64,000 bases of DNA from Bacillus marasmi. GTDB taxonomy: Bacteria; Bacillota; Bacilli; Bacillales; Cytobacillaceae. How positions within the stretch are numbered: the first letter of the stretch is position 1; every line of letters starts with the position of its first letter. The position numbers were made by a program, and so were the translations under genes. The notes beneath the pieces are model-generated. The model did no database searches. It saw only the letters and a list, made by a program, of their open reading frames with translations, and was not told the DNA's origin. The DNA is taken from the NCBI RefSeq assembly GCF_902168435.1, contig NZ_LR656168.1:186001-250000 (forward strand), in the 5' to 3' direction. Shown piece by piece: positions 24,659-30,303 of this stretch.

Positions 24659-24763
24659 AATTTCTCCTTTATACATACCCGATTTTATTCATACATGGTT
24701 TCATTTTAATATACCCTTGGCATTCTAGCAAAAATCGGTCTAGTAATGCTTTAAATAAAAACA

Positions 24764-24942
24764 GGCTCTGTTAAATTTGACGTTGATTTCCGCTCCAGAC
24801 ACGTGCGGTTCATGGGGCTAACTGGGAGCCTCCTCGGCGCTTTGCGCCTGTGGGGTCTCCCATGCCAGCTACTCCCATAGGAGTCTCCGTGTCTTCCTCT
24901 CCAATCAACGTGACAAAAATCAAAACTGTGCTTTAACAGAGC
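24764..24942. mobile_element. Palindromic MITE-like element (~180 bp)
   Basis: Outer inverted repeats GCTCTGTTAAA / TTTAACAGAGC enclose inner inverted repeats (ACGTTGATT / AATCAACGT and GGGAGCC..GGTCTCCC). The central GGCGCTTTGCGCC is a small hairpin. GC content is far above the flanks. No coding capacity. Similar palindromic elements are widespread in Bacillaceae genomes. Confidence 0.75.
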
Positions 24943-24963
24943 ATAAAAACAAAAAGAGCAGCG

Positions 24964-26160
24964 TCAGTGGCTACTCCATTTAAAAATAAACTTATATTTT
25001 TTTATCCAAGAATAAAGCAGTAGCCCTAAGCCCAAAGACAATTGCAATATTGTAAGGATGCCATCCCAAAAATGCATCGACCCGACCGGATGACTAATAC
25101 AATGTATTGTTTCTTTAAACACATATCCTAGCTGTGGAACGATATAAAAAACTAATAATGACAAGGTTATTGCCATACCTAGCAAGTAAAAAATACCATA
25201 TGTGATAACAATCTTTTTCTCGCCCTGAAACATTTCGTTAGTTGATTTTCCTTGCTTAGGGAATATCAGCCCTTTGAAGTAAGTTTGAGCATTTTCGATT
25301 AAATTATAGCAGCCGCTGCTATTTTCTAAAACGTAATATAAATCTGTTTTGAGATATACGCAGCATTGGTAAACAATCCGAATTAGAACATCAAAGACAA
25401 TTACACCGATGATTCCAATACTCACAGCTGAAAGATTTGGAAAAATCAACATCGAACTAAGTGCTATAAATAATACTAAATTATCAAAGCATAGCCCTGC
25501 TAAATAAAGTATATTTCTTTGCTTTCTTGGCAGTCTCCAAACTGATGACATATCAGTTTCTAACACAACCAAAAAGAGACGATGGCCAATTTCTAATTTG
25601 GTAGGTTGACCTACGGCCCGTATCGCTAAAATATGTCCCAGTTCATGGAACAAAATGAGTAGAAACGATAAACCCATATACAAAAGTATATTAAATATCA
25701 TTACGTCAAAAACGAATAAATCTTGATAATGAGGAACAAAGGTTGGATTAGTTAGTAGAAAAATAATATTAAGGCAAAAAAACAAGATATAACCGACAAG
25801 CATAAAACGATTAAAAAAGATATGTGCAAATTTCTCGGGAATCCAAAGGAAACCCTGTTTCTCAGGAATTGATTCTGTCTTAGTAATCGGTTGCCCATTA
25901 ATTTCCTGAACCAATTCCATTTCGAGTAGTTGTTCTGCAAATTCGATCATATTTATTTCTTCATGAGGATAAATAGCTTTAAGTTCTGTTTCAATTTCTA
26001 ATAAGCTTGCGCCAGTTTCAATCATTTCAATGGCATGAATACAAACATCGGGCATTTCAAAGAATTCACCCGTTACCGCGTCCTCGACAATGTAGTTCTT
26101 TTTATCTTCTCGGATGTGGACAGGATGCAATTGCATAGTTGTATTATAGGTAAATCTCAT
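24964..26160 (-). CDS. M50 (site-2-type) membrane metalloprotease with PqqD-like N-terminal domain
   Basis: A 398-residue protein. Residues 15-95 form a soluble domain resembling PqqD/RiPP recognition elements (YIVEDAVTGEFFEMPDVCIH, then a helical part). From about 115 there are several membrane helices. The zinc motif HELGH is at 172-176 within a helix, and a likely third ligand is the Asp in TDLYYVLEN (near 273). This layout is known for membrane peptidases of peptide-maturation systems such as YydH. It lies 55 bp after a 21-residue peptide gene on the same strand, so that peptide is the obvious candidate substrate. The ribosome site is a modest AAGGGTG. Confidence 0.8.
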   Translation of the reverse strand: MRFTYNTTMQLHPVHIREDKKNYIVEDAVTGEFFEMPDVCIHAIEMIETGASLLEIETELKAIYPHEEINMIEFAEQLLEMELVQEINGQPITKTESIPEKQGFLWIPEKFAHIFFNRFMLVGYILFFCLNIIFLLTNPTFVPHYQDLFVFDVMIFNILLYMGLSFLLILFHELGHILAIRAVGQPTKLEIGHRLFLVVLETDMSSVWRLPRKQRNILYLAGLCFDNLVLFIALSSMLIFPNLSAVSIGIIGVIVFDVLIRIVYQCCVYLKTDLYYVLENSSGCYNLIENAQTYFKGLIFPKQGKSTNEMFQGEKKIVITYGIFYLLGMAITLSLLVFYIVPQLGYVFKETIHCISHPVGSMHFWDGILTILQLSLGLGLLLYSWIKKYKFIFKWSSH

Positions 26161-26215
26161 TTAAAACACCCTTTTTCAATATTCCAGACAAAAATAAGTC
26201 TATCTTACCGTATTA

Positions 26216-26281
26216 TTAATATCCAATAATAATGCACCACCAGCAAGTTGTTTTTACTTTCTTAAGCTTACGAATCTTCAT
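26216..26281 (-). CDS. Tiny Cys-Trp-Trp-Cys peptide (putative modified or signalling peptide)
   Basis: A 22-codon frame starts at ATG 26281, preceded by AGGAGGTGA, a nine-base match to the 16S rRNA anti-Shine-Dalgarno sequence with ideal spacing. The product is a basic leader (MKIRKLKKVKTT) followed by CWWCIIIGY. It begins 24 bp after the HD-GYP gene stop and ends 55 bp before the M50 protease gene, all on one strand. A basic leader, a compact Cys/Trp/aliphatic core and an adjacent PqqD-M50 protease are what one expects of a ribosomally made peptide that is processed or exported. The function is inferred from context only. Confidence 0.7.
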   Translation of the reverse strand: MKIRKLKKVKTTCWWCIIIGY

Positions 26282-26305
26282 TTTTTGTCACCTCCTCTCA
26301 AGTAG

Positions 26306-27460
26306 TTATTTGAGTACCCATCGGTAATTCTGATGAAACTCCTTCCATTTTGGATAGGCTTTTTTAAACTCCTCAACTAGATTGGGGTCAAATTGTGTCC
26401 CTTGTCCCTCAACTATTCTTTGATACGCTACTTCTAAGGGCATAGCTTCTCGATATGAACGTGATGAAGTCATTGCATCAAATGCATCTGCTATCGAAGT
26501 AATTCTTGCAAGGAAAGGAATCTCCTCACCTGTTAATTGATTTGGATATCCTTTTCCATCCCAGCGTTCATGATGAAAATGAATAACCTGTATTCCATTT
26601 TTCAAGCCTTCTACCCCCTCAAGGGCTTTTGCTCCAAGGGCCGGATGTGTTTTTATGATTTCGTATTCTTCATCTGTTAATTTTTGTGGTTTCATTAAAA
26701 TATGGTCAGGAATATTAATCTTTCCAACATCATGAAGCAAGCAAGCATAATTAAACTCCTTGAGTTCCTTTTTAGAAAACTTGCCAATTTCCTTAGCTAA
26801 TATCAATGCATAAGAAGCAACACGTTCACTATGTCCACGAGTATATGGATCCTTTAATTCAAGCGTTGCAATCACACCTTTTACAATTCCTTGCAACTGC
26901 TTATCAAAGGAATCCTCAATTCCACGAACATAGCCAGAAAACCGATTTAAAAAAATGTAAGCAACAATCCCAAAAACCATCATTAATATAATTGGGGCAA
27001 AAACGTCTGTCGTACTTAAAATGACTCCCAAAATTAAATATTTAAATATTGTACCAACCAATACAACCAAATAAAAAGCTTTATTAATGAAAATAGGCGA
27101 AATTAGGATGAAAAAAAGCTCTACACCATTTCCAGATTTGTATTGCATTGATGAACCATAATAAGTAATGATATCTTGAACCAACACAATAATAGTATAA
27201 CTAATAAAATAAATGTATTTTACAATGTCTTTCCTACCTTGTTTAATAAGTCGCAATGCAATCGGTAATATCGCAAACAAGATAATATAAATCACATAAT
27301 TTATTAGTGTAAATTTAACTTCCATATTATATAACGTAGGAAATATTAAATAATAGCCTACATCATAACCAACCGTAATAATATAAAAAAGCCATATAAA
27401 CAATACTACTGAACGCTTTTCTTCAGTTGATAATATAGCTTCTTTTCCTTTTACACCCAT
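26306..27460 (-). CDS. Membrane-anchored HD-GYP domain protein
   Basis: A protein of 384 residues (from ATG 27460; TTG 27484 is an alternative) with an N-terminal five- to six-helix membrane domain (residues ~15-175) and a C-terminal HD-GYP phosphodiesterase domain. The HD pair is in LLHDVGKINIPDH and the GYP motif in HHERWDGKGYP, both intact, so c-di-GMP hydrolysis is plausible. The membrane domain is clearly related to that of the histidine kinase at 28880-30118: both share YD..YY.IFP-like, SPIFINK and GIV.YIFL.RF blocks. It is the first gene of a probable operon with the CWWC peptide and the M50 protease. Confidence 0.88.
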   Translation of the reverse strand: MGVKGKEAILSTEEKRSVVLFIWLFYIITVGYDVGYYLIFPTLYNMEVKFTLINYVIYIILFAILPIALRLIKQGRKDIVKYIYFISYTIIVLVQDIITYYGSSMQYKSGNGVELFFILISPIFINKAFYLVVLVGTIFKYLILGVILSTTDVFAPIILMMVFGIVAYIFLNRFSGYVRGIEDSFDKQLQGIVKGVIATLELKDPYTRGHSERVASYALILAKEIGKFSKKELKEFNYACLLHDVGKINIPDHILMKPQKLTDEEYEIIKTHPALGAKALEGVEGLKNGIQVIHFHHERWDGKGYPNQLTGEEIPFLARITSIADAFDAMTSSRSYREAMPLEVAYQRIVEGQGTQFDPNLVEEFKKAYPKWKEFHQNYRWVLK

Positions 27461-27697: not shown

Positions 27698-28717
27698 TTA
27701 ATGTCCGATGCTTTCAACTATAGATATTAAATATTTAAAATCCTCATAAGTTAGTATAGTTTCCCAATGTCCTGTAAGTCTAGCGGTAATATACACCAAC
27801 GCAAAAACTCCGAAGAAAGCAGCTGGTACGAACCATTTATTAACCTTTTTCCCAGCAACATTCACAGTTAATGTATCCTTTACTGGACATGCTTCCACGC
27901 AAAGCATACATGCAGAGCATTCTGGTGTTAATACAGCTTTCTTTTCGGAGACTTTAATTCGCTGCGGACAAACCCGTGTACATGCGTTGCAATCAATACA
28001 GGTGTCTTCATTTCGCTTGATTTTTGTAATGCCAAGCAAGGAACCTAGACCAATCAAAGCACCATATGGACATAAAAATCTACACCAAAAATTTTTAAAG
28101 AAAAGTGAGAGTACGAAAATTACTAAAATAAATTTTACAGCAAAGCTACTTATGTTTAGGAAGAACGTTAACATTTTAACATCTGAAATGACGTTGTACT
28201 GGCTAAACATGAAATCCAAGGCAGCTGCTGCAGGCATATCAAATAAAATATATTTTAAAAAGAAGGCTAATACTAAATATTTTATTGGAGATAATACCCA
28301 AGTTAACCATTTTGGTAGATCATAGGTTTTCTTTTTCATAATCATTTTACCTAACTTGCCGGTCCACTCACTCACAGTGCCAATCGGACAAATCCAGCTA
28401 CAGAACGACCTTCTAAACAACAGTCCGGAACCAACAATGAATGTGAGTAGAACTAACCCTGCAGGATGAATCGGATCAAAATCTCCAGTAGAAATCCACA
28501 CTTTAAAGCCAATCAAAGCACTGACTGGCAAAAAGCCTTCCACTGCTGGTGGTCTTTCTACAAAAGGAGCTTCACCAAAAGTAGCAAAATGATTATAAAA
28601 TAAATAAAAACGCAGTCCCACATAAAGAATAAAAAATAAGAATAAGAGCTGCACCGTCATTCTAGCGTATTCTATTGGTCTTTTCTTGATTTGTCTTTGC
28701 AACTTTTTTGTATTCAT
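27698..28717 (-). CDS. NapH/CcoG-like 4Fe-4S membrane protein
   Basis: A 339-residue membrane protein with four to five helices, two CxxxCP motifs at the ends of helices (CSWICPIG and CRFLCPYG), and two bacterial ferredoxin clusters near the C-terminus (CIDCNACTRVCP and CSACMLCVEACP). This arrangement defines the NapH/NosR/YccM family, which passes electrons from the quinol pool or cytoplasm to periplasmic partners. I chose ATG 28717 with AGAGGTGGG upstream. No nap or nos structural genes are present, so its partner is unknown. A CRP/FNR box and a -10 element precede it at the distance expected for oxygen-controlled activation. Confidence 0.85.
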   Translation of the reverse strand: MNTKKLQRQIKKRPIEYARMTVQLLFLFFILYVGLRFYLFYNHFATFGEAPFVERPPAVEGFLPVSALIGFKVWISTGDFDPIHPAGLVLLTFIVGSGLLFRRSFCSWICPIGTVSEWTGKLGKMIMKKKTYDLPKWLTWVLSPIKYLVLAFFLKYILFDMPAAAALDFMFSQYNVISDVKMLTFFLNISSFAVKFILVIFVLSLFFKNFWCRFLCPYGALIGLGSLLGITKIKRNEDTCIDCNACTRVCPQRIKVSEKKAVLTPECSACMLCVEACPVKDTLTVNVAGKKVNKWFVPAAFFGVFALVYITARLTGHWETILTYEDFKYLISIVESIGH

Positions 28718-28740
28718 GATGCCCACCTCTTTCTTTTTTA

Positions 28741-28879: not shown

Positions 28880-30118
28880 TTACTTATTTTGCTTCATCGG
28901 AATGTTAATAGTTACTTTTGTCCCTTTATTTTCTTTACTTTCAAAGCGCAACTCACCATTATGGTCTTCAATGATTTTCTTCGTAATAAGTAAACCTAAA
29001 CCAGTACCTTCTGGTTTTGTTGTATAAAAAGGTTCTCCTAATTTCTGCAGTTTTTCCTTATCAATCCCACAGCCCTGATCTTGAACTTCAATATTGATTT
29101 TCCCAGAACCTTTTCTTACTAATTTCACCTCTACAGTGCCACCCGTAGGCATGGATTCGAGGGCATTTTTTATGATATTAATAAGTGCTTGCTTAATTTG
29201 CTTTTCATTACATTCAATTAATGACAATTTATCATTCGGTTCTACGACTATCCTTGAATTTGTGTTTTCGGCTAATTGACTTGTTACACTTGTTACATAG
29301 TCAACAATTTTATTCAGATCATGTTTTTCAAAATGATTCATTTTTGGTCTGCCCAAAATCATTAAGTCATCTACAATTGAATTAATTCGATCAATTTCCT
29401 GAATCATAATTGGATAAAACGAGTTTTCACTGTTATCGCGTTCCTGTTGTAATTGCGTAAATCCCTTTAAAGAAGATAAAGGATTACGGATTTCATGCCC
29501 AATTGATGTTGCCATCTGACCTAGAACAGCAAGCTTTTCATTTTGTCGTTGTCTTTCAAACATTGAAGTCAGCGTTTTAATATAAGATGTAAAACGTGCT
29601 AAAAAGATATATGAAACGATCCCAATTACCAAGATTATTACAACTGGAAACAGAAATTCTAGACTCTGAAAATACATCGTATAAAATAAATATTTTCCAG
29701 ACAAGATTGAAATTACAACCCAGTAATATCTTTTATTAATAAAAATTGGTGAAAATAACATAAGAAAAACTTCTACAACATTACCATCATGAATATAATT
29801 CGAGTTTTTAAGTGTAATCAAAATATAATTTATAACTTCTAATAAAATAAACCCTATAGAATAAATATACTTAATCACGAATGGATTTTTCTTCTTTAAG
29901 AAATATATTGATATTGGTAAAAATCCAAACATCAAAAAATAAAACCAATAACCTAAACCAAACTCAGGTAGACCCATTGATTTATTTTTCAATTTAGGAT
30001 AGATAAAATAATAAAACAAATCATATCCAATATAAATAATATAAAACATCAGCAAAAAAAGCTTAGTTGACTTTATTTCTTCACTGACTATGTTGTCTCC
30101 ATTCATATTTCCTGTCAT
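28880..30118 (-). CDS. Membrane histidine kinase (sporulation-kinase type), orphan
   Basis: A protein of 412 residues (ATG 30118; TTG 30136 possible). Residues ~15-190 form a multi-helix membrane sensor. A HisKA domain follows with the phospho-accepting His in QMATSIGHEIRNPLSSLKGF, the sequence type of the KinA-E/Spo0F-feeding kinases, then an ATPase domain (VQDQGCGIDKEKL, GTGLGLLITKKI). No cognate response regulator is adjacent; the next one upstream belongs to dctSR. The sensor domain is homologous to that of the HD-GYP protein encoded at 26306-27460, so both probably sense the same signal. Input to Spo0F is an inference from the HisKA sequence. Confidence 0.88.
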   Translation of the reverse strand: MTGNMNGDNIVSEEIKSTKLFLLMFYIIYIGYDLFYYFIYPKLKNKSMGLPEFGLGYWFYFLMFGFLPISIYFLKKKNPFVIKYIYSIGFILLEVINYILITLKNSNYIHDGNVVEVFLMLFSPIFINKRYYWVVISILSGKYLFYTMYFQSLEFLFPVVIILVIGIVSYIFLARFTSYIKTLTSMFERQRQNEKLAVLGQMATSIGHEIRNPLSSLKGFTQLQQERDNSENSFYPIMIQEIDRINSIVDDLMILGRPKMNHFEKHDLNKIVDYVTSVTSQLAENTNSRIVVEPNDKLSLIECNEKQIKQALINIIKNALESMPTGGTVEVKLVRKGSGKINIEVQDQGCGIDKEKLQKLGEPFYTTKPEGTGLGLLITKKIIEDHNGELRFESKENKGTKVTINIPMKQNK

Positions 30119-30303
30119 AAATCCTAATCCCCTCAAGATTAATAGTATCCATATATGATGTACATACCTTATACATATTTTAATCGACAGAGAGGCTTTT
30201 CTCTACCACAAAATGAAATTAATCGGCAAAATAATATAAAATTCGACAAAAATCGCATTTTTCAGTGGGTGTAAACTTCAAATTCAGCTGATTTTCACAT
30301 CTC

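Follow-up and report, generated by a model that had tools for sequence, protein, structure and literature searches.

A conserved peptide gene between a sensor gene and a protease gene

What might be the role of a 21-residue peptide whose gene lies between the genes of a membrane sensor and a membrane protease? This question is raised by a locus of Bacillus marasmi (assembly GCF_902168435.1), for which we analyzed a window of 64,000 nucleotides on contig NZ_LR656168.1 (positions 186,001 to 250,000; coordinates given here count from the first letter of the window). The peptide gene (26216..26281, minus strand) encodes MKIRKLKKVKTTCWWCIIIGY and sits between the gene of a HD-GYP protein with a MASE12 membrane domain (26306..27460, minus strand) and that of an M50 membrane metalloprotease of 398 aa (24964..26160, minus strand), which has a predicted domain of the type that recognizes ribosomally synthesized and post-translationally modified peptides (RiPPs), the RiPP recognition element (RRE). 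Along the operon the order is MASE12-HD-GYP, peptide, RRE-M50. The peptide family is real and strictly conserved, and none of the family libraries searched has a match for it. The likeliest function of the locus is that of a peptide signal wired to cyclic di-GMP (c-di-GMP); the chief alternative is a membrane microprotein that acts within one and the same cell.

A sequence-only reading had claimed the small frame, its ribosome site, the spacings and a common operon. The frame, ribosome site and spacings could be confirmed, and the spacing is operon-like. The Shine-Dalgarno sequence AGGAGGTGA (26288-26296, minus strand) lies 6 nt ahead of the ATG, and the operon-like gaps amount to 24 nt between the HD-GYP stop and the peptide frame and 55 nt between the peptide frame and the M50 ATG. 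The HD-GYP protein is read from the ATG at 27460, within a longest open reading frame (ORF) from 27484. The reading had also proposed a search for the small frame and its CWWC core next to homologous M50 genes. This check was run, and both are conserved, together with a Shine-Dalgarno-like string.

Relatives of the M50 protein occur in 54 of 151 genomes, own included. The peptide is present in the window and at all 47 relative loci with a near-full-length M50 match (at least 39% identity and at least 282 bits); eight weaker hits (at most 161 bits; two of them fragments) have no CWWC peptide. All 16 named loci from Bacillus sp. and Neobacillus carry it, three of them with CWIC or CWLC. Across the CWWC-associated M50 clade the peptide adjoins the M50 gene at 80/80 oriented loci, which represent at most 78 independent places, L031/L086 and L045/L098 being the same records.

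The consensus consists of a MKIRKLxKxKxT leader, 0-4 further residues, the core C-W-[W/I/L]-C and a variable tail. C1, W2 and C4 of the core are found in 77/77 distinct genes and the third core residue is W in 75 of them. At the protein level, leader and CW[WIL]C hardly change, while synonymous codons vary freely, with six codons for Leu6 and five for Arg4. This protein-level conservation and the 80 loci bear out the earlier claim of a real, selected peptide. A loosely defined Shine-Dalgarno-like string was found for all 77 genes. The tail comprises 2-10 residues, most of them hydrophobic, along with Gly and Pro; an aromatic residue stands second in 63/77, and nearly every locus has its own tail sequence. 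In the window, the basic leader MKIRKLKKVKTT is accompanied by the C-terminal part CWWCIIIGY. The frame overlaps the HD-GYP gene by 4 nt in 29 of the 77 genes, and one peptide copy per locus was seen in the stretches scanned. The window peptide gave no NCBIfam or Pfam match at E ≤1, searches that have little power for 21 residues.

MASE12 sensors beside the peptide

The HD-GYP gene is located directly upstream of the peptide at 79/80 loci, the remaining locus being cut by a contig end. Pfam MASE12 (PF20971) was identified in all 17 cassette HD-GYP proteins scanned. In the window protein it covers residues 13-171 (26948..27424, minus strand; E 2.2e-31) with six predicted helices. Locus L112, which has no upstream gene because of a contig end, was dropped from the protein alignments. 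Among the 79 aligned homologues, HDxGK and GYP are invariant (79/79 each) and HHER is present in 78. The structural model shows six membrane-type helices and a typical HD-GYP domain (PDB 4mcw, E 5e-10). Motifs and fold are those of c-di-GMP phosphodiesterases, an activity that is predicted here. Convincing PDB matches of the model are HD/HD-GYP domains, and none was found for the MASE12 fold.

In addition, a histidine kinase with a MASE12 domain was identified by motif at 58/80 loci. Relative to the cassette its gene is upstream, divergent or downstream, and in at least four loci the upstream sequence is cut off by the end of the contig. Beyond these 58, L045/L098 (two copies of one record) have a MASE12 kinase with an unmatched kinase box. 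The MASE12 locus profile was built from the HD-GYP proteins of the same loci and is an independent test for the kinases only; the HD-GYP proteins are tested by Pfam. In the window, the kinase (28880..30136, minus strand; PF20971 E 1.3e-24) lies two genes upstream of the HD-GYP gene and had been missed by the earlier reader; it is a possible second reader of the peptide. At one locus, L071, two MASE12-HD-GYP genes stand in tandem, and the stretch contains no MASE12 kinase.

Co-occurrence in the order

Counting the window's own, 299 genomes from the order were analyzed. The M50 clade (E < 1e-100) was found in 32 of them, and the peptide adjoins it in all 32. A degenerate peptide pattern matched in 31 of the 299 genomes and adjoined the M50 gene in 30; the match in G321 was rejected as chance, with no C-W-x-C in frame. 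With the pattern reversed as a control, all genomes listed gave 0 matches. Two M50-clade genomes missed by the pattern carry the peptides MKIKKLKKIKATCWWC and MKVKKLNKLRATDHCWWC. MASE12 was found in 37/299 genomes, namely 31 of the 32 with the M50-peptide system vs 6 of the 267 without it, and in 0/14 control genomes; B. subtilis is named among the controls. The single system genome without MASE12, G154, is cut by a contig end. Most MASE12 domains (47/54 in the 299 genomes) are no more than 4 kb away from the M50 gene. A phylum-wide search returned 2/398 genomes, the window's own and one of the same family, with an E limit of 1e-20 and a sampling that could miss distant relatives.

Three of the seven stray MASE12 domains were scanned, and all three belong to histidine kinases, so no MASE12-HD-GYP protein was seen away from the cassette. 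The MASE12 loci away from M50 (L130-L136) have no CWWC peptide. L130 (G012) has a MASE12 histidine kinase next to the molybdopterin oxidoreductase cluster that in relatives comes after the cassette. None of the HD-GYP, peptide and M50 genes lies between the two, as if a deletion had left the sensor behind alone. L131-L134 are MASE12 proteins of one genus in another conserved context without CWWC peptide or M50, of which L131 was scanned and is a histidine kinase.

Co-divergence of tail and sensor

Tail distances were compared with protein distances at 74/79 loci, after loci with M50 at least 90% identical had been dropped. Corrected for the HD-GYP catalytic part and M50, tail distance is weakly correlated with distance in the HD-GYP MASE12 domain (partial r 0.195; 0/2000 permutations reached this value). 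For M50 the partial r was -0.02, reached in 1378/2000. When tails were shuffled within clades, the MASE12 value was reached in 0/1000 in all six settings. These values single out the HD-GYP protein as the probable partner of the tail, by way of a weak correlation and not of binding. The link between peptide and HD-GYP sensor suggested by the sequence-only reading is hence supported by conservation, co-occurrence and co-divergence with MASE12.

The kinase was analyzed at 54 of the 74 loci, without L049 and L050 (short kinase ORFs) and the loci lacking a kinase motif match. As cognate receptor of the tail it is unsupported (partial r 0.014, 739/2000). The HD-GYP MASE12 domain gave 0.223 (0/2000) in the same subset. 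The two MASE12 domains are weakly correlated with each other (partial r 0.118, 7/2000), which is not specific, since the kinase domain also co-diverges with the HD-GYP MASE12 (0.088, 20/2000).

The M50 protease and its N-terminal domain

The M50 protein has HExxH in a membrane protein, as expected of an M50 (site-2) metalloprotease. The zinc/catalytic motif HELGH (H172-H176; 25633..25647, minus strand) was located by alignment, and HExGH (H172, E173, G175, H176) is invariant in 79/79 homologues. Pfam M50 was found in 17/17 members at E ≤1, with a best value of 9.3e-05. A sequence search of solved structures with the M50 profile gave 0 matches at E 1.

The sequence-only reading had placed a PqqD-like, leader-binding-type domain at the N-terminus, and structure prediction agrees with it. 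In an AlphaFold model from 17 sequences (mean pLDDT 65.6), the first 90 residues (about residues 1-90; 25891..26160, minus strand) have blocks of 66-89 and form strands followed by three helices. The best Foldseek matches are the RRE TbiB1 with leader peptides (5v1u/5v1v) and 6jx3, one of them titled lasso peptide synthetase B1, followed by a sactipeptide enzyme (5why/5wgg) and TigE (8vpo). By model topology and Foldseek, a predicted RRE domain is therefore encoded beside the precursor. Plain Pfam does not show PqqD, so the assignment rests on structure comparison.

Related M50 systems with ThiF/E1-like genes

Another 18 loci with distant M50 proteins (L078-L083, L118-L129) have no CWWC peptide within 0.9-1.5 kb upstream. 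A ThiF-family gene was found by Pfam at all five loci examined (L078, L082, L118, L123 and L119), and no MASE12-cluster gene is present in L078-L083. Short peptides with a related leader were identified at nine of the 18 loci (L078, L079, L080, L081, L118, L119, L121, L122, L125), six of which have two to five copies, and also at L137. Examples with a leader similar to that of the CWWC peptides are MKIEVKKTEKLKPT and MKIVAKKVEKVKAT. At a Streptomyces plasmid locus, a ThiF gene is annotated and MEIKVRKVEDVKATGLQV is encoded behind the M50. Where distant M50 relatives on plasmids carry an annotation, it mostly reads hypothetical protein. These sister systems and their leaders had been missed by the earlier reader.

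Leader scores were compared with a background of 3784 small ORFs, from which CWWC peptides near contig ends had been removed. Scores of 34-36 (L079, L118, L125, Streptomyces) are reached by 0/3784 and 28 (L078, L080, L119, L122) by five, of which three are L080's own sister peptides, while 27 (L081) is reached by seven and 26 (L121) by eight; these odds are flattered, because the sister peptides were picked by a filter (MK[IV] start, basic residues).

The ends of the sister peptides differ. PYGG or similar occurs in MKIEVKKTEKLKPT and others (five copies in L078 and L119), and L079 and L118 have a Cys-bearing end. A GG end beside an E1-like enzyme is reminiscent of ubiquitin-like activation. 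Helix-turn-helix-tetratricopeptide-repeat (HTH-TPR) regulators were found by Pfam near L078 and L123, and genes near L119, L122 and L083 look alike. HTH-TPR is the build of the RRNPP pheromone receptors. The CWWC clade may be one branch of an older family of M50 peptide systems guided by leaders, a branch that works with sensors instead of the ThiF enzyme.

Comparison with known systems

Short hydrophobic peptide (SHP) pheromones of streptococci have short precursors with an active hydrophobic C-terminus; the membrane M50 site-2 protease Eep contributes to the signal, which is read by Rgg (PMC3150281). The CWWC system shares the short precursor, the hydrophobic C-terminus and the membrane M50 protease. 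However, its M50 has an RRE-like domain and adjoins the peptide gene, and the core is CWWC. In place of the cytoplasmic Rgg there is a membrane HD-GYP protein as candidate receptor. No Rgg/RRNPP receptor was found beside the peptide, the direct neighbours being MASE12 membrane proteins and M50, and no import system is common to the 56 clustered loci.

The epipeptide EPE is also a Bacillus peptide produced with an M50 intramembrane protease. A radical SAM epimerase modifies it first (PMC7026026), and the M50 protease EpeP (YydH) takes part in the production of EpeX in B. subtilis (PMC10885120). In contrast, the CWWC loci have MASE12 sensors and no radical SAM epimerase cluster common to the 56 loci, as judged by clustering only, without a one-by-one search. 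The pearlin proteases TglG and TmoG, likewise membrane M50 proteins, act on RiPP scaffold peptides and release a single C-terminal residue (PMC10885120), whereas the CWWC peptides keep an internal core and vary at the C-terminus. In lasso peptide systems an RRE is fused to the leader peptidase (PMC10885120, PMC7470986), which resembles the RRE-protease joined here, and the best Foldseek matches are RREs with leader peptides. The lasso peptidases, however, are C96 cysteine proteases acting with macrolactam formation; in the CWWC system the protease is an M50, and the 56 loci share no cyclase. Also comparable are the sister ThiF/E1-M50 loci (L078-L083, L118-L129, L137), with homologous M50 proteins and similar leaders at 9/18 and at L137. 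They differ by the ThiF/E1-like gene, often several peptide copies and other cores such as PYGG.

As in RiPPs, the CWWC peptide is genetically encoded as a short precursor whose conserved leader is set off from a core of its own. Apart from the MASE12 proteins and M50, no gene type occurs in more than 19 of the 56 loci, and no modification enzyme is common to them, so the system is RiPP-like and is not classed as RiPP. For the same reason a crosslinked RiPP was rejected, and the crosslinking through Cys or Trp considered in the sequence-only reading found no support. A defence system was rejected as well. At E 0.01, PADLOC found nothing for M50 or kinase, and its matches for HD-GYP were all of the generic Cas3/Cas10 HD kind. 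No published description of the CWWC peptide-M50-MASE12 system was found among the papers listed from the literature searched, as judged by titles and the opening of abstracts; its scope leaves out preprints and most subscription papers. There, no biological paper uses the word MASE12 (the sole occurrence concerns image processing), and M50 has 0 occurrences in two RRE papers (PMC12710340, PMC7470986).

Proposed function and alternatives

We propose an undescribed peptide signalling cassette in which the matured peptide is sensed by MASE12 and relayed to c-di-GMP, a reading to which we give slightly better than an even chance. It is based on the computed peptide conservation, gene order, RRE-like fold, conserved HExGH and HD-GYP residues, co-occurrence and tail-MASE12 co-divergence. 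From these we infer the steps of leader binding, cleavage, release and sensing, and the direction of the effect. The RRE domain would bind the basic leader MKIRKLKKVKTT of the precursor, and the M50 domain would clip it in the membrane near the leader-core border. The product, CWWCIIIGY or similar, would pass into the membrane or out of the cell, possibly with its CxxC pair joined as a disulphide. Sensed by the six helices of MASE12 in the HD-GYP protein, it would change the c-di-GMP phosphodiesterase output of that protein. In many species, the MASE12 histidine kinase might be a second reader, and the tail may set specificity between species.

Several points weigh against this proposal. The 56 loci have no exporter gene in common, and the peptide leaving the cell is a step that we only infer. 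Six genomes have MASE12 and neither M50 nor peptide. The kinase MASE12 shows no co-divergence with the tail at its 54 loci. Mantel-type tests leave some relatedness in, and 0.195 is a weak effect; under free permutation the HD-GYP catalytic part is also correlated with the tail (r 0.143, 0/2000), and in the within-clade shuffles its value was reached in 3 to 257 of 1000. The model of the M50 protein has a mean pLDDT of 65.6, its Foldseek matches (prob 0.84-1.00) have E values of 0.06-1, the best being 0.062 and all above 0.001, and Pfam PqqD appears in only 1/17 members (E 0.044). The Pfam M50 match of the window protein (E 0.0051) is below the curated cut-off. The flattered odds of the sister leaders also belong here.

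The lack of a shared exporter gene would fit a non-secreted regulatory microprotein, inserted in the membrane and binding the MASE12 domain of the HD-GYP protein in the same cell, with the M50 trimming or removing it as site-2 proteases do in regulated proteolysis. The 4-nt overlap with the HD-GYP gene in 29/77 and the basic N-terminus with hydrophobic C-terminus are consistent with it, and tail-MASE12 co-divergence fits equally. However, both the RRE-like domain on the protease and the leader's similarity to the sister ThiF/E1 peptides point to maturation, not disposal, and tails that differ between nearly all loci would be more typical of pheromones; we consider the microprotein unlikely. 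The invariant cysteines (77/77) would also suit a peptide whose CxxC pair reads redox state or metal and alters HD-GYP or kinase output. A NapH-like ferredoxin gene in the window cassette (27698-28726) and a molybdopterin oxidoreductase gene near 16/56 loci speak for this, but such redox neighbours occur at a minority of loci, and a leader-binding protease and a variable tail would be superfluous for a redox sensor, which makes this explanation improbable.

An antimicrobial or kin-killing peptide like EPE, with the sensors reporting self or envelope stress, could draw on the part that EpeP takes in EpeX production in B. subtilis (PMC10885120). Against it, the 56 loci share no immunity or transporter gene, a single peptide copy per locus was seen in the stretches scanned, and PADLOC found no defence match for M50 or kinase; its probability is a shade lower than that of the redox peptide. 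Finally, a short frame with a strong ribosome site just ahead of M50 could be a translated attenuator leader that controls M50 expression only. This is very improbable, as conservation is at the amino acid and not the nucleotide level and the tail co-diverges with MASE12, not with M50.

If the signalling proposal is true, MASE12 gains a proposed ligand, a ribosomal peptide is linked directly to c-di-GMP in Bacillus-like bacteria, and an RRE is used by a lone membrane protease. The CWWC peptide escapes family-based annotation. A wider claim, which we hold tentatively and with somewhat less than an even chance, is a new class of cell-cell signals: CWWC pheromones matured by an RRE-M50 protease and read directly by a membrane c-di-GMP phosphodiesterase via MASE12, possibly feeding the sporulation phosphorelay where a MASE12 kinase also reads them.

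Other features of the window

A promoter scan was uninformative (13 sites vs 17.1 expected). A terminator-like hairpin (24977-24955, minus strand; consensus match only) overlaps the M50 stop. It is weak by itself, as five such sites were found vs 2.9 ± 2.0 in shuffles. The NapH-like ferredoxin gene lies between both MASE12 genes in the window and in three relatives of the same genus (L031-L033), and at no other of the 56 loci. Behind the operon (24750-24950) there is a dispersed repeat element, for which 48 genome matches were reported, many of them partial and 68-100% identical.

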